Source of the DNA: Sulfidibacter corallicola
GTDB lineage: Bacteria > Acidobacteriota > Holophagae > Acanthopleuribacterales > Acanthopleuribacteraceae
Reading direction: 5' to 3'
DNA: 64,000 nucleotides
Assembly: GCF_017498545.1 (NCBI RefSeq)
Contig: NZ_CP071793.1
Coordinates: 2,356,001 to 2,420,000, forward strand
In this document: piece after piece, positions 8,658 through 40,600 of the stretch
Layout: each line of letters opens with the position of its first letter
How positions within the stretch are numbered: position 1 is the first letter of the stretch
Translations under genes and position numbers: made by a program
The notes under the pieces: generated by a model
Database searches by the model: none
The model's input: the letters and a program-made list of their open reading frames with translations, nothing else
What the model was told of the DNA's origin: nothing

Positions 8658-8856
8658 GGGCATCCTCCTTACCGTGGCTGACTGCATGAATAGACCGTGG
8701 ATGAGGATCACAAATCCTATCCATTTTTATCGCCGAGCTGGACCCTCGGATAAACCGTTACCGTTTAAAAAGGCTCGCAAACGGCTCACGCCAAGGCCTC
8801 TTCAAACAAAAAAACCAAACAAAAATCTCATACAAATCGGGACGTTCTAGGGATTG
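8658..8856. other. Upstream region, possible small transcript ending at the 8857 terminator
   Basis: AT-rich sequence between the divergent transglutaminase-like start and an isolated plus-strand terminator. A 64-codon plus-strand frame ends at 8850, but its ATG (8656) overlaps the neighbouring start codon and it has no ribosome site, so I do not call it. If the terminator is real, a plus-strand small RNA here is the simplest explanation. Confidence 0.3.
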
Positions 8857-8877
8857 GCGAGTCTAACTCGCTTTTTT
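8857..8877 (+). terminator. Orphan Rho-independent terminator
   Basis: GCGAGT-CTA-ACTCGC, a perfect 6-bp stem with a 3-base loop, followed immediately by TTTTTT on the plus strand. No plus-strand gene ends nearby: the closest upstream gene on this strand ends at 7522 and is separated by an opposing gene. Confidence 0.65.
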
Positions 8878-9293
8878 CATTGTTTTTAGGACAGTGAAAT
8901 TCCCATCGGTTTTTCTCACAATTTCTTAACAATTTAGCGTTTCACCTCACAAACTGTCAACCTCGAGTTGGGTCTTCGGCCCGCCATGAGCGACTGCGAT
9001 ACAGGGAAATTCCCTATCCAAAATTCTCGAAGCTCGGCAAATTCCCCGGATTTCTCGGCCTGAAGCACCTATCGAACCAATCCACCCAACCACAGCACAA
9101 GCCTAAAAATTTCATACACTTATGATGAAAAAACCGATTTTCGACGCAGGTCCCCTCCGCCATTCGGCACCACAAGTCCCGTCGATCCAACCGAGAACAG
9201 GTCGAACATCACCCGTTTGCCGGCGAAATCTATCCCTTGGACGAATCGCACATATCATCCGTGATCCTTTCGCGAAACCCACCCACTTGTTCC
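8878..9293. other. Non-coding stretch upstream of rpsT
   Basis: About 415 bases, AT-rich in places, with a small palindromic motif GGGAAATTCCC (~9003-9013). No coding frame, tRNA or clear hairpin-plus-T-run was found until the rpsT promoter. Confidence 0.35.
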
Positions 9294-9322
9294 TTGATTT
9301 GCCCCTGCAACTCCCCTATACT
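9294..9322 (+). promoter_or_regulatory. Sigma-70-type promoter of rpsT
   Basis: TTGATT (9294-9299), a 17-base spacer, and TATACT (9317-9322). It gives a leader of about 90 bases before rpsT, room for post-transcriptional control as seen for S20 in other bacteria, though no structure was proven here. Confidence 0.7.
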
Positions 9323-9417
9323 TGCGTGATCTGCGGATTCGCGACCCTTGCCGAAATCGGCAGCCGAAGGTCACGAGTCAGCGACAAAGCCAAGAAACAC
9401 CTCAAGGAGATCTCTTA

Positions 9418-9678
9418 ATGGCGAATCACAAATCCGCGGCTAAAAAAGCGAAGCAGGACATCGCGCGCCGCGCCCGGAATCGCGCCGGGAAAAGCCGTTT
9501 GAGAACCGAACTGAAAAAGATCCGCAAGTTGATCCAGGAAGGTTCCAGCGAAGCCGTCACCAAGCTCCCGGCAATGTATTCCCTCATCGACCGCTCAGCG
9601 AAAAAGGGCTTTATTCACCAAAATGCGGCCGACCGTTTGAAAGCACGCCTGGCCTCGCACATGCCCGCCGCACAGTAA
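9418..9678 (+). CDS. rpsT: 30S ribosomal protein S20
   Basis: 86 aa, very basic, with the S20 start MANHKSAAKKAKQD and the helical body RRARNRAGKSRLRTELKKI...FIHQNAADRLKARLA. S20 binds 16S rRNA in the 30S body. The ATG at 9418 has AAGGAGA 8 bases upstream; the longer open frame back to 9322 is not used. It has its own promoter and is followed 68 bases on by the PASTA protein gene. Confidence 0.97.
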   Translation: MANHKSAAKKAKQDIARRARNRAGKSRLRTELKKIRKLIQEGSSEAVTKLPAMYSLIDRSAKKGFIHQNAADRLKARLASHMPAAQ

Positions 9679-9746
9679 CCTTTCTTTTTTTCCCAAATTA
9701 CCTTTTGTAAAGAACCCCAAACGACAAGGATTCAAAACGGGGAGCC

Positions 9747-10496
9747 ATGGCATTTCGCAAGACTTTGAAGAAACTGCTCGGTACTACCGTCCTTGTCGGT
9801 TTGGGTTTTTCTCTTTTTATCGCCGGAATCACGCTGGGGACCTGGTTTTACATTCGCCACATGGTACAGGGCAAAGTGGTCGAGGTTCCCGATCTGTACG
9901 GCATGACCCAGGTGGAAGCGGAAAAGAGCCTGAAGGCCCGAGGGCTGATACCCGAGCTCGACACCCAATCCACGGTGCACAGCCAGGTCATCGAAAAAGG
10001 TAACGTACTGCTTCAGATTCCGCGGCCCGGACACCCCGTCAAGGCCGGCCGCGCCATCGAAATCATCATGTCCGCCGGGCCCGAGAAGAAGCTGATCCCC
10101 AGCATGCAAGGCGAGACCTTGAGTTATTCCCAAACCCTGTTGCAGCGCGCGGAAGCCAAGGCCGCGGTGGTCTCGCGTATTCCCTCGACGTTGGAGGAGA
10201 AGGGCCGTATCCTGGCGCAACATCCCGATGCGGCCAGCGAGATCGGCATGCGACCGGGTGTGTCGCTGCTGGTTTCGGACGGACCCCCCAGCAAGGCCTA
10301 CGTGATGCCCGATCTGATCGATCGCGATTTCATCAAGGTCAAGGCCTTTCTCGATCGTTTCGAATTCAGGGTGGTCACCAAGTACCGAGCTCAAGACCGC
10401 GGACTCGGTCAGGTGGTTCTGGATCAACGCCCGCAACCCGGGTACCCGATCACCAAGAACCAGAGCATCACTCTCATCGTGAACGAGGATTTTTGA
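9747..10496 (+). CDS. PASTA-domain membrane-anchored protein
   Basis: 249 aa: a short basic cytoplasmic tail, one membrane helix (VLVGLGFSLFIAGITLGTWF, ~17-36), then three PASTA domains outside: ~44-109 (VVEVPDLYGMTQVEAEKSL), ~115-180 (KLIPSMQGETLSYSQTLL) and ~187-249 (VMPDLIDRDFIKVKAFL). PASTA domains bind muropeptides or beta-lactam-like structures and usually belong to PknB-type kinases or PBPs; here neither a kinase nor a transpeptidase domain is attached, so it may be a cell-wall sensor, scaffold or modulator. It lies directly upstream of rpe in the same direction, a neighbourhood I recall from other Acidobacteriota and delta-proteobacterial genomes. Confidence 0.88.
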   Translation: MAFRKTLKKLLGTTVLVGLGFSLFIAGITLGTWFYIRHMVQGKVVEVPDLYGMTQVEAEKSLKARGLIPELDTQSTVHSQVIEKGNVLLQIPRPGHPVKAGRAIEIIMSAGPEKKLIPSMQGETLSYSQTLLQRAEAKAAVVSRIPSTLEEKGRILAQHPDAASEIGMRPGVSLLVSDGPPSKAYVMPDLIDRDFIKVKAFLDRFEFRVVTKYRAQDRGLGQVVLDQRPQPGYPITKNQSITLIVNEDF

Positions 10497-20854: not shown

Positions 20855-21279
20855 GAATCCTCCATCGAGCCTCGCTCCACCAAAAGCCTGGAGGGGGCAA
20901 ATGTAAAGATAGCAAATAAGGGGCAAAACCCGAATGCGGGAGCTCGCCGCGAACAACCTTTCCTCGAAATTCCCGGTCACAAGGTGACTTTTCCGATGAG
21001 CACATTTCCAACCGATTCCTTTTTCCAGCGGCACGGGAATCGGGAAATTTTGATACGCTTTAGGTCTCGACACATGGTATATAGCCATAGGGTCCGTGGT
21101 GCCGTCTGGTTCTAAAGCGATATGAATCGAGTACGTTGCAAGCTATGACCCAAAGTGTGCGAATCGGGGTGGATGCAATCGTGCACAATGCCTATTTCGA
21201 TCGACACCCCCTTTCATAGTCTCTCCGAAATCGAGCCTACCGTTCGGCAAAAATCCATGTTTTCCCGCGGAGAATTTCC
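20855..21279. other. Divergent intergenic region
   Basis: About 425 bases between the sigma-54 activator (-) and the outer-membrane protein gene (+). It contains the strong GGAGGATTC ribosome site of the activator and AT-rich tracts near 20895-20930 and 21040-21085. No promoter with good spacing, sigma-54 -24/-12 box or RNA gene could be supported. Confidence 0.35.
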
Positions 21280-22041
21280 ATGCTTGTTTTGATGTCCCTG
21301 CTTCTTTTCCAAACGCCCGAGCTGGTTACGGACCGACCCGATCAGTCCGAATCCGCCGAAGTGGTCCCGGTCGGGTCCTGGCAATTCGAGATGGGTGTCG
21401 CCCGTAGCGAGTCGGATCCCGGCATCGAATTCGAGACGACGGCCTTCCCCCAGACCTTGATCCGCTACGGCCTGAACCCGAACCTGGAGTTGCGCATCGG
21501 CTGGGACGGCGTGATCGACGTGGAAACCGACGCATTCGGCGGCAATTCCGACTCCGGTGCCGGCGACACGAGCCTCGGCGTGAAGTGGAAGCTCTTCGAC
21601 GAGCGCGGTCGTCGTCCGCAAATGGCGATCGTGGCGGGCACCAATCTGACCACCGCGGAGGATGGATTCGGCAGTGACGAATTCGAACCGGCGGTTCGTC
21701 TGGCGTTTTCCAGCACGCTCAGCGACCGATTGGGCCTCGGCTACAACCTGGGTTGGTCGAGCCTGCGCACCGACGACGGCATCGACGAGCACACCCTGGC
21801 CACCGTCCAATATTCCATGGTCCTCGGCATCGGCGTGAGCGACCGCGTAGGAGCCTTCATCGAGGCCTTCGGCGACGTCCCGGCCAGCGCCCCCGGAGGA
21901 CCCAGCAACAGTATCGATACCGGGATCACGGTGGCACTGTCACCGTTGGTCCAGGTAGATGCCGCCGGTGGTTTCGGCATTTCCGACGAGGCGGACGATT
22001 GGTTCGCCACGGTGGGCATCTCCTTCCGCCTCGACCGTTGA
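21280..22041 (+). CDS. Predicted outer-membrane beta-barrel (transporter/phenol-degradation MetA-like family)
   Basis: 253 aa with a short hydrophobic start (MLVLMSLLLF) that may be a signal peptide. The body is made of alternating amphipathic strands separated by turns: TDRPDQSESAEVVPVGSWQFEMG, NLELRIGWDGVID, GDTSLGVKWKLFDE, RLGLGYNLGWSS and WFATVGISFRLDR, ending in a C-terminal strand with an aromatic/Arg pattern. The opening LVTDRPDQ...VPxGxWQxE is characteristic of a family of small outer-membrane channels (PF13557-like). Substrate unknown. Followed by the repeat cluster, with no terminator visible. Confidence 0.75.
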   Translation: MLVLMSLLLFQTPELVTDRPDQSESAEVVPVGSWQFEMGVARSESDPGIEFETTAFPQTLIRYGLNPNLELRIGWDGVIDVETDAFGGNSDSGAGDTSLGVKWKLFDERGRRPQMAIVAGTNLTTAEDGFGSDEFEPAVRLAFSSTLSDRLGLGYNLGWSSLRTDDGIDEHTLATVQYSMVLGIGVSDRVGAFIEAFGDVPASAPGGPSNSIDTGITVALSPLVQVDAAGGFGISDEADDWFATVGISFRLDR

Positions 22042-22204
22042 GGCCAGGCCCGGCGAAGTCGTGCGGCCCCGAGAAACCGTTGCGGAATGTTCATAAGCAC
22101 TTCCAAATCGGTGGGTTGATCGGATTGGCGTTTCCTGCACGGGAGGATCGGTCGCTTCGCTTTTTGACCCTAGGATCAGCCGAAGCCGACACTGCTTCGA
22201 TGAG

Positions 22205-22560
22205 CCCGCATGACCGTAAGCGGCACAAGGCCTGTAGGTTGAGCAGCTTGCTCAACCATTCGAAGCAACCCAAGCAACGCCAACCAATTGCACCAAAGAG
22301 CGGAGCCGACCATTTCCCTCGCGACGCCGATCAAAAGCCACCATGTCCGAAGTCCCCGCATTGCGAGAGGGGCGTAAGGCCTGTAGGTGGAGCAGCTTGC
22401 TCAACCATTCGAAGCAACCCAAGCAACCCCAACTAATTGCGCCAAAGAGCGGAGCACAGAATCTCCCTCGCAACCCCAATTCGAAGTCGCAAGGTCCAGA
22501 TTCCCGCATCGTCAGAGGGGCGTAAGGCCCGTAGTTGGCCCGCTGGGCCGGCATTGAGAA
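22205..22560 (+). repeat. Three direct copies of the ~149-bp GTAG-hairpin repeat (cluster 1, plus orientation)
   Basis: Cores begin at 22231, 22380 and 22528 (spacing 149 and 148). Each has ...GGCGTAAGGCCTGTAGG followed by a palindrome, then CGAAGCAACCCAAGCAAC and GCGCCAAAGAGCGGAGC. The first palindrome is GGTTGAGCA/TGCTCAACC, the second is a near copy with one arm changed (GGTGGAGCA/TGCTCAACC), and the third is built on GGCCC-GCT-GGGCC. The conserved GTAG before a hairpin matches the layout of REP sequences mobilised by RAYT (Y1-HUH) transposases. Confidence 0.85.
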
Positions 22561-22949
22561 GCAATTCAAGCGACATTAGCAAAATATGCAAAGGAGCGAA
22601 CCCCAACCCATCGAAGTAATCCAACAGCGGGGTGGCTCCATCTCAAAAGAGACGTCGTGCCAGGTTCAGAGGCGGCAAGCCCGCTGGGACAACGTGTCGA
22701 AGGCGGTTGCTTAGCAGGAGCACAGCAGAAAGGCGAACGCCGAAATCCGGGTGACCGCCGGAACCGGTATGATCGACAGCGATGGCGCCAGCACCTGAGA
22801 GTTCGACGTGGACGGCAAGGTCCTGGCCTCGGGCCTAGGGGCCATTATAGATCGGAGTGCGAAAGAGCGAAGCGATCGGTTCCCCCGCGGAAGAAAGGCC
22901 GAGACTTCGGACCTCTCGAAGACTGCGACAAGTCGTCTTTCGATCGGCT
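22561..22949. other. Spacer between opposing repeat arrays, with a degraded coding-like segment
   Basis: About 390 bases separating plus- and minus-oriented repeats. Around 22725-22880 the plus strand reads AEIRVTAGTGMIDSDGAST, an in-frame TGA (22806-22808), then EFDVDGKVLASGLGA, which looks like a remnant of an exported repeat protein; it lacks a start and is too short to name. A fragment resembling the repeat tail (CGAAAGAGCGAAGCGATCGG) begins near 22860. Confidence 0.35.
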
Positions 22950-23430
22950 TAAAGGGTTGAGTAAGCTGCTCCACCTACAGGTCTTACGCCGTTCTCCCGA
23001 TGCGGGAAATTTGGACCATACGGCTTCGCTGGCGTAGCTCGAGGGAGGAAATCGGCTTCGCTCTTTGGCGTAACTCCCTCCCGTTTCATACGTTGCTTCG
23101 ATTGGTGGAGCAAGCTGCTCCACCTACAGGCCTTACGTCCCTCTCATGATGCGGGGACTTCGGACTTGGCGGCTTTTGATCGGCGTCGCGAGGGAAATTA
23201 TCGGCTTCGCTCTTTAGCGTAACCTACTTCCGTTTCCTGAGTTACTTCGATCTGTCGGCCCAGCGGGCCATCCTACAGACCTTAGGTCCCTCTCATGATG
23301 GGGGGACTTCGGACTTTGCGGCTTTTGATCGGCGTCGCGAGGGAAATTATCGGCTTCGCTCTTTAGCGTAACCTACTTCCGTTTCCTGAGTTACTTCGAT
23401 CTGTCGGCCCAGCGGGCCAACCTACCCGGC
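22950..23430 (-). repeat. Four inverted copies of the ~149-bp GTAG-hairpin repeat (cluster 1, minus orientation)
   Basis: The same unit in reverse orientation. The CCTACAGG boxes (reverse complement of CCTGTAGG) or their variants start at 22974, 23123, 23272 and 23421, exactly 149 bases apart each time. Two cores are of the GGTGGAGCA...TGCTCCACC type and two of the GGCCC-GCT-GGGCC type. The third and fourth units are almost identical over ~149 bases (for example GCGTAACCTACTTCCGTTTC at 23217 and 23366), implying recent tandem duplication. Confidence 0.88.
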
Positions 23431-23571
23431 ATGACGCCGCTCTCGGTATGCGGGCACTCCCAGCATGGATCACTTCGACCCGGCGGCTCGGGCGGGCCTG
23501 GCACTTACTGCGCCTCGCCACTCTCTCGATGCGGGGACTCCGTGCCTGGGCACCTCGATGCCACACGGGAA
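23431..23571. repeat. Decayed repeat remnants at the end of cluster 1
   Basis: Sequence with repeat-like words (CTCTCGGTATGCGGGCACTCC, CTCTCGATGCGGGGACTCC) about 90 bases apart, resembling the region between cores in the units upstream but diverged. Probably older copies. Confidence 0.5.
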
Positions 23572-26500
23572 TCAGCCGTCCGATTGGCTCAGCGACTCCA
23601 TGAAGGAAAGTACCTCTTCCACCTGAAAGGCCTTCTCGTATTCGGTCCAATCCGCCTCGGACAGATCGACCGCCACGGCTTCGATCTGATCCATGCAGTC
23701 GGCCATCGTAATGCGCGCCTCGCTGAACCGGGTGGCGTCGGCCTGGTATTTTGCGGCCGTAAACAGATTGCGCCAAGTCTGGGTCCGCGCCGCCAACTCC
23801 TGGCTCAGGGGCATTGACGGTACGACGGGAAGCGCCTGCACCGCCGTCGCCAGTGGCGCGACCGGCACATCCGACGGACCCCTGTCTTCGGGCTCGCCAG
23901 GCGGGGACGCCGCCGGCAGCCGCTGGATCAGCGTATCCTCCTTCGTGCTCACACCCTGCAGACGCATGTCGGCAAGCGCTTCCACCATTTCCTGGGCACG
24001 TCCGAACCGCTGCTCGGGCGAAAACGCCAAAGCTTTCATGACCAGGTTGGTCAACGGCAGCGGCAAGTTGGGTGCGATTTCGCGAAGGTTCAGGATTCGG
24101 CCGGCGCGAATGTTCCCGATCAGGCTGATCTCGTGTGCGCCCTGGTAGGGTAGGCGGCCACACAGCGTCTCGAACATCAGCACACCCAAACCGTAGATGT
24201 CGCTGCGGTGGTCGCAGCGCCGGTGGATCACCTGCTCCGGAGCGATGTAGGCAAGGGTGCCCATCAGTCCGTTACCGCGGGTGATCGTTTCCATGTGCTC
24301 CGCGTTGGAGAGTCCAAAATCCATCAAAATGACCTGTTTCTTGTGGATTACACCGTTGGCCAGGGCCGCGATATCGCGCGAGGAGAATCGCCAGGCGGGC
24401 GATTGAAAGAGTGCGTCGTGCGTCAAAAAGATGTTGTCGGCCTTCAAATCGCGATGCAGGATGCCTTTGTCGTGAATGTAAGCCAACGCCTCGGCCACCG
24501 CCTCGAAGATGACGATCGCCTTCCGCCACGGCAGCGGGCCCTGCTCCGCCATCAGACGGCGCAAGGTGACGCCTTGCAACAACTCCATGCTGATGAAACC
24601 ACGCCCATCGATTTCCCCGGTCTCGTAGACCTTCACGATATTGGGGTGTTTCAAACTCTTCAAGATCGCGGCTTCGCGTTGAAACCGACGCCGCAGTTCC
24701 TTTTTGTGGGTCAACTCGGGCGGAAAGGTCTTGAGCGCCACCGTGCGACGCCGCACCACGTTGCGGGCCCGGTACACGACCCCCATGCCGCCCTCACCCA
24801 AGAGGCCCTGCAACCGGTAGGGACCCAGATAGTGGGAGGAAATCCAGTGGGAAAAGCCACATTCGTTGACCGCACAGAACGTCAAAAACAGCCCGGCCCC
24901 GAACCAAATCCCCATCTGGCGAACCCCGGAATGGTGAAGTGTGGCCAGATCGACAACCAGATAGAGTGCCATCGCGGCAATGGTGGTACAGGCAAAGGTC
25001 CGCGAAATCGGCCCCGTCCTGCGCGGTAACAAATAGCGGTAGAGGCCCAGCAACAGCAGGAACAGGGCGATCCACTTGGCCGCGGTCCCCCAGGGATCCA
25101 CCCGCGTCAGGTTCAAACCCATCTGGTGAAATGTCGCATAAACCGGGCGGATCAAGGGCCGATGGGCCGAGAGTTCCAGGGTCTGGCCAGGCGCTAGGCC
25201 GGCCAGCTCGGCGATTTCGCCCGTGGGGAACATCGCCCGCACGCGATAGGTTCCATCCTGGGCCAATCCAAAATGTACCTGATCGCCCAGCCCGTATTGG
25301 GCCTGGTTCTGCCCCGAGACGCCCACCTGCTGAAAGCCCACCAAACGCGATTCACCGTTGGGCTCCTCGCGGTAAAGCCAGACTCGCGTGCCGATCCCCT
25401 CGTAGTTGCCCGGGGTTCCGACGAGGTCGAACTTCAGGAACTGTCGGTCGTCGCGTACATTGTCGACGACCTTGATCGGTCCTTTGCCCTCGACCAAGAT
25501 ATCCAAATCGCCGTCTTGATCGAGATCGGAGAATTGAAACGGAACTCCGGGAATCTCCTCGGTCACCATCGAATCCAAATCCCGCCACCGCCCGTCACTC
25601 CCCCGCGAGAGGATGTGGCGTTCGTTTTTTCCGCCGATGTCGGTCATCAGGAAGATTTCCGCGTAGCCGTTGTGATTCAGGTCGCCCGCAACGACGATGT
25701 TGACACTGGGATAATTGAGTTCCCCGATCATGGTGGGAAAGTCGGCTGTGCGGTTCACGAAAAAGCCGGTACCGTCGTTGAACCAGACCTCCAGCTCGCT
25801 GCGAAAGATGATCAAATCCAGGTCACCGTCCATGTCCAGGTCACCGAGTTCGGCTCGACCATAACCGGCGCCCCAGGTCGCATCGAGGCCGGATTCCGCC
25901 GACATGTCGCTGAACACCCGATCGCCCTCGTTGCGGTAGACCAGCAGGTCGCTGGGCCGATATCCCGGCGAGATGGCGTCCAGGTCCCCATCTCCGTCGA
26001 GGTCTCCCCAGAAATAGGGCGTCGCCGAGTACGCAAACCGCACGTTCACGTCTTCCTCGAATCGATTGTCCTGGTTCCAGAGGATATAAGGATAGGCGAT
26101 ATTACCGACCATTCTCGCACAGTAAAGGTCCAAATCGCCGTCTTGGTCCAAATCGAAGATGCCCTGGAGCAAGCGCTGCTCGACTTTTTCGGTGTTGCCG
26201 AGGACGTTGGATGCAACCCATTGCGGCGCAACCCCCAATCGATCCGACACCACCAAACGCGGGTTTCGATTCGGCCAGGTCGTACTGGCCATCAATTCGA
26301 CCCGATCGAAGTGGTCGACCTTGGCTGCATGCACCTGGGTGTAGAACCCGGAAGTGGATTCCTCCATCAGTGTCTGGTCGAGCACGAACTGACCACCGCC
26401 CAAGTTGATGTAACTCTGGACTTCCCGTTTTTGGGAGATCAGCAGGTCGGGTCGCCGATCCCCGTTGAGGTCCATCACGCGCGAACCGCTCTCGCGCTGG

Positions 26501-27609
26501 GTGAAGTGGGGCAGACCCGAAGGATGATCCAGCGACCTCAGATAGGGCGGATTGATCTGCGTCGGCGCGAGTATGTGGTTGTTACCCAAAATCCAAGGCT
26601 GGCCGGGCGTTTTTTCGGCGAAGTGCGACAAGGCGTTGGCCGAGGCGGAGAAGACGCGTTGCCATTGCCGCCCATCGTAGCGAATGATGGTCCCGCTGCT
26701 GCCGACCGCCAGGACCTCCTCGGGTCCGATCGCCAAAATATCCAACAGGGTCAGATTCACCGGTAAGTCGCGCCACCAGCGCCATGTCCCTTCGCTGTAA
26801 GAGGCCACCATGCCGTCACCGGCGATCCACACCGTTCCGTTCTCGTCCACATCGAGCGCGCGAAACCAATTGTCGGGCAAATCCGCAGGAGGTTCGATCA
26901 TGCGCCAGACACCGTCGCGATACTCGGCCAGCATGCTGATGGTCCCGCAGGCCCAACCGGTATCGCCGTCGACCATGTGGATATCGAGAAAATTGAAGGA
27001 CCGCTTGGTTTTTTCGGAGTAGGTCTGAAACCGTTCGTTGGGTTCGGCGACGGCCAGATACCAATCGTCGTCACCGAAATACAGAAGACGTCTGCCGTTG
27101 CCGGCCAACCACCCTTCCGTGGGCGAAACCATGTCCATGGCCTGGGGCCAGATTTGGGTGTCCGGCAAGGTGCGCCGAGTCCATTCCTGCCCATCGAAGC
27201 GCAGCAATTCCAGATGCTCACGAGGATCCCACCCATCCTCGTAGGGCGCCATGGGACACACCCAGAGCCGATCGGCCGGATCGACATCCATGACGAAGGT
27301 TCGCTTACACTCCAGGGGAAAACTGGGTTCCAATTGCCAGGTGCCATCTTGGTAACGGTAAAGCAGGTCCTTGGTGGGCGTCGTCGAAACGCCTCCGGCC
27401 CAGCCCCGCCCCCGGCTGTCGAAGACCATGCGCATTTTCCAACCGCCCAAGGGGGTCTCGCTATGGACGTACCAATCCAGGCGCGGCGTCACATCGGAGG
27501 CGGGCGAAAATCCAACCCCAAACACCAAACAACTCAACCAGGAAAGCCGAGCCGCGATCTCCCTAATGAGGTCAAGAGAAAAGTGTCTCACTTTCTGAAG
27601 ACTCCGCAT
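23572..27609 (-). CDS. Receptor-like Ser/Thr protein kinase with FG-GAP/ASPIC ectodomain
   Basis: About 1345 aa. Order: a signal/anchor segment (~20-38); a propeller-like region (~40-370, repeats such as GWLAGNGRRLLYFGDDDWY and TVWIAGDGMVASYSEGTW); six FG-GAP/VCBS calcium-loop repeats (~385-715; DLNGDRRPDLL, DLDQDGDLDLY, GDLDGDGDLDAI, GDLDMDGDLDLII, SDLDQDGDLDILV); an ASPIC/UnbV-like domain (~735-825, GIGTRVWLYREE...GLGDQVHFGLA); three membrane helices (~845-915); then a cytoplasmic Hanks kinase with GEGGMGVVYRA, HRDLKADN (~1050), DFGLS (~1096) and APEQ, plus a helical tail. All kinase residues are present. The ATG at 27609 is chosen over a TTG at 27633; neither has a good ribosome site. Ligand and targets unknown. 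Confidence 0.88.
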   Translation of the reverse strand: MRSLQKVRHFSLDLIREIAARLSWLSCLVFGVGFSPASDVTPRLDWYVHSETPLGGWKMRMVFDSRGRGWAGGVSTTPTKDLLYRYQDGTWQLEPSFPLECKRTFVMDVDPADRLWVCPMAPYEDGWDPREHLELLRFDGQEWTRRTLPDTQIWPQAMDMVSPTEGWLAGNGRRLLYFGDDDWYLAVAEPNERFQTYSEKTKRSFNFLDIHMVDGDTGWACGTISMLAEYRDGVWRMIEPPADLPDNWFRALDVDENGTVWIAGDGMVASYSEGTWRWWRDLPVNLTLLDILAIGPEEVLAVGSSGTIIRYDGRQWQRVFSASANALSHFAEKTPGQPWILGNNHILAPTQINPPYLRSLDHPSGLPHFTQRESGSRVMDLNGDRRPDLLISQKREVQSYINLGGGQFVLDQTLMEESTSGFYTQVHAAKVDHFDRVELMASTTWPNRNPRLVVSDRLGVAPQWVASNVLGNTEKVEQRLLQGIFDLDQDGDLDLYCARMVGNIAYPYILWNQDNRFEEDVNVRFAYSATPYFWGDLDGDGDLDAISPGYRPSDLLVYRNEGDRVFSDMSAESGLDATWGAGYGRAELGDLDMDGDLDLIIFRSELEVWFNDGTGFFVNRTADFPTMIGELNYPSVNIVVAGDLNHNGYAEIFLMTDIGGKNERHILSRGSDGRWRDLDSMVTEEIPGVPFQFSDLDQDGDLDILVEGKGPIKVVDNVRDDRQFLKFDLVGTPGNYEGIGTRVWLYREEPNGESRLVGFQQVGVSGQNQAQYGLGDQVHFGLAQDGTYRVRAMFPTGEIAELAGLAPGQTLELSAHRPLIRPVYATFHQMGLNLTRVDPWGTAAKWIALFLLLLGLYRYLLPRRTGPISRTFACTTIAAMALYLVVDLATLHHSGVRQMGIWFGAGLFLTFCAVNECGFSHWISSHYLGPYRLQGLLGEGGMGVVYRARNVVRRRTVALKTFPPELTHKKELRRRFQREAAILKSLKHPNIVKVYETGEIDGRGFISMELLQGVTLRRLMAEQGPLPWRKAIVIFEAVAEALAYIHDKGILHRDLKADNIFLTHDALFQSPAWRFSSRDIAALANGVIHKKQVILMDFGLSNAEHMETITRGNGLMGTLAYIAPEQVIHRRCDHRSDIYGLGVLMFETLCGRLPYQGAHEISLIGNIRAGRILNLREIAPNLPLPLTNLVMKALAFSPEQRFGRAQEMVEALADMRLQGVSTKEDTLIQRLPAASPPGEPEDRGPSDVPVAPLATAVQALPVVPSMPLSQELAARTQTWRNLFTAAKYQADATRFSEARITMADCMDQIEAVAVDLSEADWTEYEKAFQVEEVLSFMESLSQSDG

Positions 27610-39489: not shown

Positions 39490-40105
39490 CGCAAGCAACG
39501 CAAAGCCTGTAGGTTGGCCCGCTGGGCCGACGCGTCGAAGCAACCCAAGCAACAGCAATCAATTGCGCCAAAGAGCAAAGCCGCCCTTTTCCCTCACGAT
39601 CCTCATCGAAAGCCGCGAGGTCCAAGGTTCCCGCATCGCGAGCGGGGCCTAAGGCCTGTAGGTGGAGCAGCTTGCTCCACCAATCGAAGCAACGTAGGCA
39701 ACAGAAGGGAGTTACGCCAAAGAGCGAAGCCGATTTCCTCCCTCGAGCTACGCCAGCGAAGCCGTATGGTCCAAATTTCCCGCATCGCGAGAGCGGGGCG
39801 TAAGACCTGTAGGTTGGCCCGCTGGGCCGACGCGTCGAAGCAACCCAAGCAACAACCATCAATTGCGCCAAAGAGCAAAGCCGCCCTTTTCCTTCACGAC
39901 CCTCATCGAAAGCCGTGAGGTCCAAGGTTCCCGCATCGCGAGCGGGGCCTAAGGCCTGTAGGTGGAGCAGCTTGCTCCACCAATCGAAGCAACGTAGGCA
40001 ACAGAAGAAACTTACGCCAAAGAGCGAAGCCGATACTATCCCTCGCCGCGTGCCATCGAAACAACCTTGCACTCATCGAAATCGATCATCGAGAGATCTA
40101 GAGGC
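39490..40105 (+). repeat. Cluster 2: two tandem 300-bp copies, each of two ~150-bp GTAG-hairpin units
   Basis: CCTGTAGG boxes begin at 39506, ~39656, 39806 and ~39956. The 300-base period from 39506 to 39806 is exact and the two copies are nearly identical. Within each, the first unit carries the GGTTGGCCC-GCT-GGGCCGAC hairpin and the second carries GGTGGAGCA-GC-TTGCTCCACC, so two unit types alternate. Shared unit words: CGAAGCAAC, GCGCCAAAGAGC, GAAAGCC, TTCCCGCATCGCGAGAGCGG. The same family forms cluster 1 at 22.2-23.4 kb. Confidence 0.9.
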
Positions 40106-40600
40106 CCGACGTCTCTGCTTCGCTCTTTTTCCACTCGACCATGCGAAGCGTAGGCCGCTTCGAAGTGTCGGGCTGGCAGCCCAACCTACCAGGCACGACA
40201 AATCTCTCGGCATCCGGTCACCCCAAGCGGATTTGTTTCTAGGGAGCATCGAACCAAAGGGCACACCCAGCTCGATTCCTAGATAGAAACAACTCGAAGT
40301 TAGCAGATTCGGGGAGCCCTGCAATCTATGTGGGACGTCGGGCACGGCGATACCGGCCGCGCTCGCAACACATTCCGACTTCGCTCTCTAACGTTTCGTA
40401 TCTGCGCAACCTTGATCGCTTCGACGAGTCGGGCCAGCGGCCCAACCTACTGCCGTGCCGACCCTCAAAGCTTGCGGGGGCTCCTCACATGGATCGCTTC
40501 GAAATGTTCAGCCGACGGCTGAACCTACCGGGCGCGACGCATCTCTCGGCATTCGGGGACTCCGAGTGAATTCGTTTCTAGAGAGCCGCGAACCAGCGGG
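40106..40600 (-). repeat. Diverged minus-orientation GTAG-hairpin copies
   Basis: Three cores read on the minus strand as GTAGG + hairpin: around 40167-40190 (GTTGGGCT/AGCCCGAC), 40428-40450 (GTTGGGCC/GGCCCGAC) and 40506-40529 (GTTCAGCC/GGCTGAA). Arms differ between copies yet stay complementary within each. Spacing is irregular, unlike the phased arrays. Two copies of an unrelated word (GGATTTGTTTCTAGGGAGC / GAATTCGTTTCTAGAGAGC, near 40220 and 40569) also recur here. No gene is present from 39402 to 40665. Confidence 0.7.

Follow-up and report, generated by a model that had tools for sequence, protein, structure and literature searches.

GTAG hairpin arrays of the acidobacterium Sulfidibacter corallicola as probable REP/REPIN clusters of a RAYT system

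The group-3 REP of Stenotrophomonas maltophilia, as studied in vitro, is 23 nt long; GTAG precedes a perfect 8-bp palindrome that encloses the loop GCT (PMC8266576). The first G of the loop (G13) is essential, whereas altering the stem makes only a modest difference, and no activity is seen with the inverse strand (PMC8266576). Repeats with a GTAG tag were found in a 2013 survey in Proteobacteria, Cyanobacteria, Chloroflexi and PVC; the acidobacterial Y1 genes of the same survey were TIR-flanked TIRYTs without GTAG REPs (PMC3733652). Our literature search for acidobacterial REPs returned no report beyond that survey. Here we describe arrays of GTAG hairpins in the acidobacterium Sulfidibacter corallicola, and argue that they are very probably REP/REPIN clusters of a RAYT (TnpA_REP) system, that is, elements of a known kind. 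The argument is built on the repeat family itself, its covarying fold, strand asymmetry, head-head architecture, adjacency to RAYT genes and dispersal, all observed in this genome.

The window is the whole stretch of DNA that was analysed, 64,000 nucleotides in length, and corresponds to 2356001-2420000 of the single genomic contig. At 22220-23441 of the window, three units on the + strand face four on the − strand, each consisting of GTAG and a hairpin, and together they occupy the gap between two convergent genes, one for a PF13557 protein and the other for a large FG-GAP/Ser-Thr kinase (Table 1). Successive + units are 149 and 148 bp apart, and each of the three steps between − units measures 149 bp. 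This layout of three direct and four inverted units, with a GTAG-headed hairpin in every core and a near-constant pitch of 149 bases, had been recognised in an earlier, sequence-only reading of the window and is confirmed here, the cores given then being within about 4 bp of ours. The regular pitch is a property of the full units only; the third + unit covers profile positions 1-91 and the innermost − unit positions 3-41, both being partial or decayed. An Rfam search of 21000-24600 returned no relevant family. A second array, at 39495-40531, has the same design and likewise sits between convergent genes.

Table 1. Features of the two arrays in the window, followed by composite clusters and IS110-family copies elsewhere in the genome.
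Feature	Position	Strand	GTAG 5' end	Hairpin or other detail
Phenol_MetA_deg (PF13557) outer-membrane-type protein gene	21292-22041	+		3' end towards array
REP unit 1, 149-bp type	22220-22367	+	22234	GTTGAGCA-GCT-TGCTCAAC
REP unit 2, 149-bp type	22368-22516	+	22383	GTGGAGCA-GCT-TGCTCAAC
REP unit 3, partial/decayed	22517-22606	+	22531	TTGGCCC-GCT-GGGCCGG
Spacer at centre of converging arrays	22607-22940	none		without detectable full unit
Innermost unit of minus array, partial	22941-22990	−	22978
REP unit, 149-bp type	22995-23141	−	23127	GTGGAGCA-GCT-TGCTCCAC
REP unit, 149-bp type	23144-23290	−	23276	GATGGCCC-GCT-GGGCCGAC
REP unit, 149-bp type	23292-23441	−	23425	GTTGGCCC-GCT-GGGCCGAC
FG-GAP repeats and Ser/Thr protein kinase gene	23572-27492	−		3' end towards array
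Second cluster, four + units	39495-40070	+	39509, 39658, 39809, 39958
Second cluster, diverged − units	40111-40531	−		40199-40111, 40464-40323, 40531-40487
Composite, copy 1	1428764-1429312
Composite, copy 2	6946391-6946974
Composite, copy 3	9339653-9340236
IS110-family copies	about 999.7-1001.2, 1803.4-1805.1 and 8263.3-8265.0 kb; also 3880.7, 6083.6, 7584.6 and 11713.8 kb

The core of the unit is 23 nt long and is made up of GTAG and an 8-bp palindrome that closes a triloop, either GCT or GCC. In an unbiased sample of the genome (100 systematically spaced stretches of 20 kb, 2 Mb in all), GTAG stands immediately 5' of an 8-bp palindrome with a 3-nt loop at 177 sites, the arrangement of group-3-type REPs, and the loop is GCT or GCC at 171 of the 177. 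The stem covaries strongly. Across 54 units, 99.5% of the cells are paired, compared with 76.6% after shuffling; the corresponding covariation scores are 0.574 and 0.152, and slid controls have 24-44% of cells paired. About 22 stem sequences occur in the one genome. The third position of the stem has a T·G wobble on the GTAG strand 83-84 times among the 171 sites; the converse mismatch, C.A, which would be a wobble on the opposite strand, was seen once. This asymmetry indicates that the GTAG strand is the one whose fold is selected, and with the covariation it gives the conserved, strand-specific secondary structure of a REP. The predicted structure is limited to the hairpin, the remainder of the unit being conserved as sequence.

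Units whose bodies are 95-99% identical can nevertheless differ in the stem (for example, 79776 and 80074), and nearest-body neighbours have a common stem in 63 of 115 cases. Exchange of the stem as a block, or conversion of the body between hairpins, would explain such differences. It is possible, although we put it forward tentatively, that the hairpin is an exchangeable cassette, in which GTAG, the loop GCT/GCC and pairs 1, 2 and 7 of the stem form an unchanging frame and about 22 stems are swapped as a block between bodies 95-99% identical. If so, strand transfer or conversion with breakpoints at the hairpin would keep diversifying the elements, and the loop and the tag would stay fixed for recognition by the RAYT. 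A variant REP has a long apical insert with AGGGGCGGTAAGCCC, and its 5' stem arm is often decayed (L077:7311, L045:10468, L116:11985, and others; local stretches).

The GTAG hairpin combined with TCGAAGC has 909 matches in the 11.79-Mb genome (searched as a single contig of 11,786,365 bp), of which 430 are forward and 479 reverse. With the pattern reversed there are 0 matches in the genome, and zero are expected in the shuffled window, so the hairpins are not a product of chance. The 2-Mb sample contains 174 REP cores, corresponding to about 1,000 per genome, and we put the family at roughly 900-1,000 copies. With one unit as query, blastn against the genome gives at least 145 matches spread over many clusters; a CM search has at least 150 among the matches listed, a figure that is not intended as a count. 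The sequence-only reading had proposed a genome-wide search, on the ground that units occurring nowhere else would mean a local duplication; they occur throughout the genome, and once more within the window.

Most REPs are extragenic. Of the 174 in the sample, 165 fall between called genes, 6 are inside called ORFs and 3 are located where a sampled stretch ends; high copy number and an extragenic position are characteristic of GTAG REPs. REPs avoid divergent promoter regions: 76 are found in 66 kb of convergent gaps and 83 in 197 kb of codirectional gaps, as against 6 in 100 kb of divergent gaps (2-Mb sample, genes called by a simple hexamer script that is adequate for gap types and not for exact starts). 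A giant polyketide synthase ORF of over 4,200 codons contains five units (at about 10748185-10748605). Their spacings are 78/132/132/78 bp, all multiples of 3, and their in-frame translation is a repetitive stretch of roughly 200 aa that links an acyl-carrier domain to a ketosynthase domain.

The repeat was not found in relatives, either by blastn of the unit against 30 of them or by the hairpin pattern in 6 genomes of the family. No excision or insertion polymorphism is visible among these genomes; at the single orthologous flank, in one relative, the upstream gene is conserved and the next gene is different, so that no empty site is seen.

A RAYT gene had also been suggested as something to look for, and the NF047646 profile finds three RAYT-like genes in the genome, at 3386535+, 728975+ and 3327244-. 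These were detected only with NF047646 and not with PF01797. They score 65-68 bits against a curated cut-off of 80, and the proteins are 57-62% identical to one among the three. The motifs of RAYTs, HUH MPNH(V/L)H and Y(V/I)xxNP (Y-x-x-x-N-P), are invariant in all three, and in the PDB E. coli TnpA_REP (4er8, E 0.01) is their best match and the sole plausible one. Convergent GTAG hairpins stand on both sides of the gene in all three cases, as in a REPtron. The flanking stems agree with each other, being GTTGAGCA at 3386535, GTTGGCCC at 728975 and mainly GTTCATCC at 3327244, and the two hairpins of a nearest pair mostly have the same stem allele. The other Y1 genes provide an internal control: hairpins of this REP type are found within about 9 kb of none of the five. 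The copy number of the hairpins, together with the three RAYT genes that they flank, supports the REP/RAYT reading.

The Y1 genes found with PF01797 at 8.50, 10.22 and 11.26 Mb were considered as the relevant RAYTs and rejected, being without nearby GTAG hairpins of the family. Motifs of the form GGGGACAG occur in their flanks. A TIRYT, or TIRtron, is recognised as a Y1 gene with GGGG-type terminal repeats rather than GTAG REPs, and the three Y1 (HUH) genes in the local stretches L134 (about 9500-10130), L135 (about 9405-10410) and L136 (about 8780-9760), with GGGGACAG motifs in their flanks and without GTAG hairpins of this family, may resemble this TIR-associated type. RAYT-like genes of relatives have no GTAG hairpins in the flanks examined. 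A contig scan with one RAYT found only distant relatives, in Lentisphaera and Bacillota. The Lentisphaera relative (MAG contig DYMC01000064.1) has GTAG hairpins of its own, GTAGGGCGGCC...GGCCGCC, unlike the present family in sequence; they stand at 2951 and 3627, before the RAYT relative and beside its 3' end.

Clusters with units on both strands are ordered all + and then all −, head-head with GTAG outside, in 26 of 29 cases as against 8.1 in shuffles, which is the organisation of inverted REPs in REPINs. The smallest head-head pairs measure 120-121 bp from GTAG to GTAG. REPs are mostly sense near the 3' ends of genes and mostly antisense near the 5' ends, an orientation that follows from the head-head geometry of the cluster. 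These data bear on whether the units could instead be RNA elements that serve the host, as hairpins in the 3' UTRs of converging transcripts, where they would protect the ends of the mRNA or prevent read-through and be kept by selection rather than by mobility. The strong bias to convergent and 3'-end gaps would suit such elements, but it is also expected from selection against insertion into promoters. The fold is conserved on one strand and single-strand clusters in codirectional gaps favour the gene sense by 11 to 4, both of which speak for RNA elements, but units facing a gene start in such gaps are antisense by 22 to 5, in keeping with the head-head geometry. Moreover, a search of the array for a terminator-like site or T-tract found none, the units are absent from the relatives searched, and REPs flank all three RAYT genes and none of the five other Y1 genes. 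Orientation and context are thus better accounted for by removal of promoter insertions than by a sense-strand RNA function, and we consider the latter rather unlikely.

The conserved unit is far longer than a REP, as had been pointed out from the sequence alone. The smallest tandem unit is 78 bp and comprises the hairpin, TCGAAGC, about 14 bp, AGTTCCCGCATC, GAGAG and a G-rich stretch that ends in GCC directly before the next GTAG. The 149-bp unit is the 78-bp unit expanded by about 71 bp that include CGCCAAAGAGCGAAGCC, a sequence that the smallest head-head pairs also have in their spacer. Conservation reaches about 50 bp upstream of GTAG (to about -51) and at least 9 bp past the hairpin (+32 or more). 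The outermost REPs retain the upstream tract, and 61 of 88 have a CGAAGC-like motif about 51 bp upstream, the place expected from a preceding 78-bp unit; the extended unit is therefore general. Thus it is the 23-nt core that fits the size of a REP, and not the unit, which is not limited to about 20-40 bp. Since known REP clusters can take in flanking DNA (PMC3733652), the long conservation is treated here as a variant of the unit whose core is still a REP.

The regular pitch had suggested a dedicated array, in which the 149-bp phasing would itself be functional, for example by spacing sites for gyrase, IHF or a nucleoid protein. Among same-strand neighbours of the 2-Mb sample 148-150 bp is indeed the commonest distance (30 of 79), but 77-79 bp follows closely (22 of 79), pitches of 132-137 and 143-146 bp are also present, arrays range from 1 to 9 units, and many REPs are single. 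A unit of fixed length copied in tandem can account for the pitch, and regularly phased tandem REP arrays are known in Pseudomonas fluorescens SBW25 (PMC3116915). A function for the phasing as such is improbable.

Dispersal of clusters is seen directly in a composite that is about 545 bp long, carries REPs in the order +, −, − and is present at three distant sites (1.43, 6.95 and 9.34 Mb) in copies 98-99% identical with unrelated flanks. The copies show that REP clusters disperse, not which enzyme is responsible, and they can serve to mark recent dispersal and where its borders lie. REPs are also targets of IS: IS110-type copies and one DDE-type IS interrupt REP hairpins. The IS110-family element (PF02371, PF01548) has seven copies, identical over the 401 bp compared. 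In the three copies whose flanks were examined the element stands at the GTAGG head of a REP; another three have REP units within about 0.6 kb. IS110 elements use guide RNAs, which would allow the target loop of this one to be set against the REP; an Rfam search of the element returned none. The DDE transposase element (DUF772, DDE_Tnp_1_6) at 3527411-3529497 is located in the centre of a REP hairpin, apparently with a 7-bp duplication, CAAGCTG, and a related copy is found at 8119378-8121465. The location of both IS types inside REP hairpins might suggest that the units are miniature elements moved by one of these transposases, but the IS interrupt the hairpin as they would a target, their ends are unlike the REP unit, and the equivalent relation, insertion of IS into known REPs, has been described in other bacteria (PMC1525189), which makes this origin very improbable. 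A purely local tandem duplication with inversion, for which near-identical adjacent bodies (such as 23189-23337 and 23338 onwards) could be cited, is refuted by the genome-wide matches and the many clusters built in the same way, and can be dismissed.

The mechanism that we propose under the REP/RAYT account is as follows. The 23-nt REP, single-stranded and in the form of the GTAG strand only, would be the substrate of an HUH/Y1 RAYT encoded elsewhere in the genome. The RAYT would bind GTAG and the loop, and would cut and transfer the single strand, so that head-head pairs are copied into intergenic space; it is in this sense that we infer RAYT-driven mobility. Insertions would persist mainly where two genes converge or at the 3' end of a gene. 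Arrays may later grow by tandem amplification of the REP with its flanking body, either as the 78-bp unit or as the 149-bp unit with a spacer-like body, probably via recombination or circular intermediates. Counted against the REP/RAYT account are the RAYT scores, which are below the profile cut-off, the excision or insertion polymorphism looked for and not seen, and the unit, which is longer than a classical REP.

The arrays extend canonical GTAG REPs with RAYTs to an acidobacterial lineage where the 2013 survey had only TIR-flanked relatives; the species is in culture. With about 1,000 REPs, about 22 stems and one nearly invariant loop, the genome offers an extensive natural data set on the features that a group-3 RAYT may need for recognition. 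The data set agrees with in vitro selection on the Stenotrophomonas enzyme, and the natural variation agrees with each of the properties of the S. maltophilia REP determined in vitro (PMC8266576). Many arrays are present at several stages of growth, which makes the expansion of REP clusters directly testable.

The family resembles the group-3 REPtron Sm (TnpA_REP, REP_Sm) in its 23-nt geometry of GTAG, 8-bp perfect palindrome and GCT loop, in strand specificity, in the invariant first G of the loop, and in having the RAYT gene between a REP and an inverse REP (PMC8266576). Unlike REPtron Sm, it has about 22 stems in one genome, a common T.G wobble at stem position 3, and a unit conserved about 50 bp upstream of GTAG and into a 3' body (PMC8266576). 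With the GTAG REP superfamily it shares the tag, a 5-13-bp stem with a 2-20-nt loop, the predominance of head-head dimers, and clusters of units reiterated with flanking DNA; unlike the acidobacterial Y1 genes of the same survey, GTAG REPs and RAYTs occur here together (PMC3733652). As in E. coli, where BIMEs accompany TnpA_REP (group 2; PDB 4er8), there are a GTAG tag, an HUH/Y1 RAYT and inverted REP pairs, but in E. coli the REP palindrome is longer, imperfect and bulged, whereas here it is perfect and carries a triloop (PMC8266576). P. fluorescens SBW25 also has three RAYTs, each adjoining its own REP type, a dominance of head-head pairs, and ordered tandem arrays with fixed spacings (PMC3116915). 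The spacings are 72 and 112 bp in SBW25 and 78 and 149 bp here, and SBW25 arrays are repeated pairs, whereas here several + units converge with several − units (PMC3116915). The family departs from the known REP/RAYT systems in the length of its conserved unit, in an unusual diversity of stem alleles and in its acidobacterial host.
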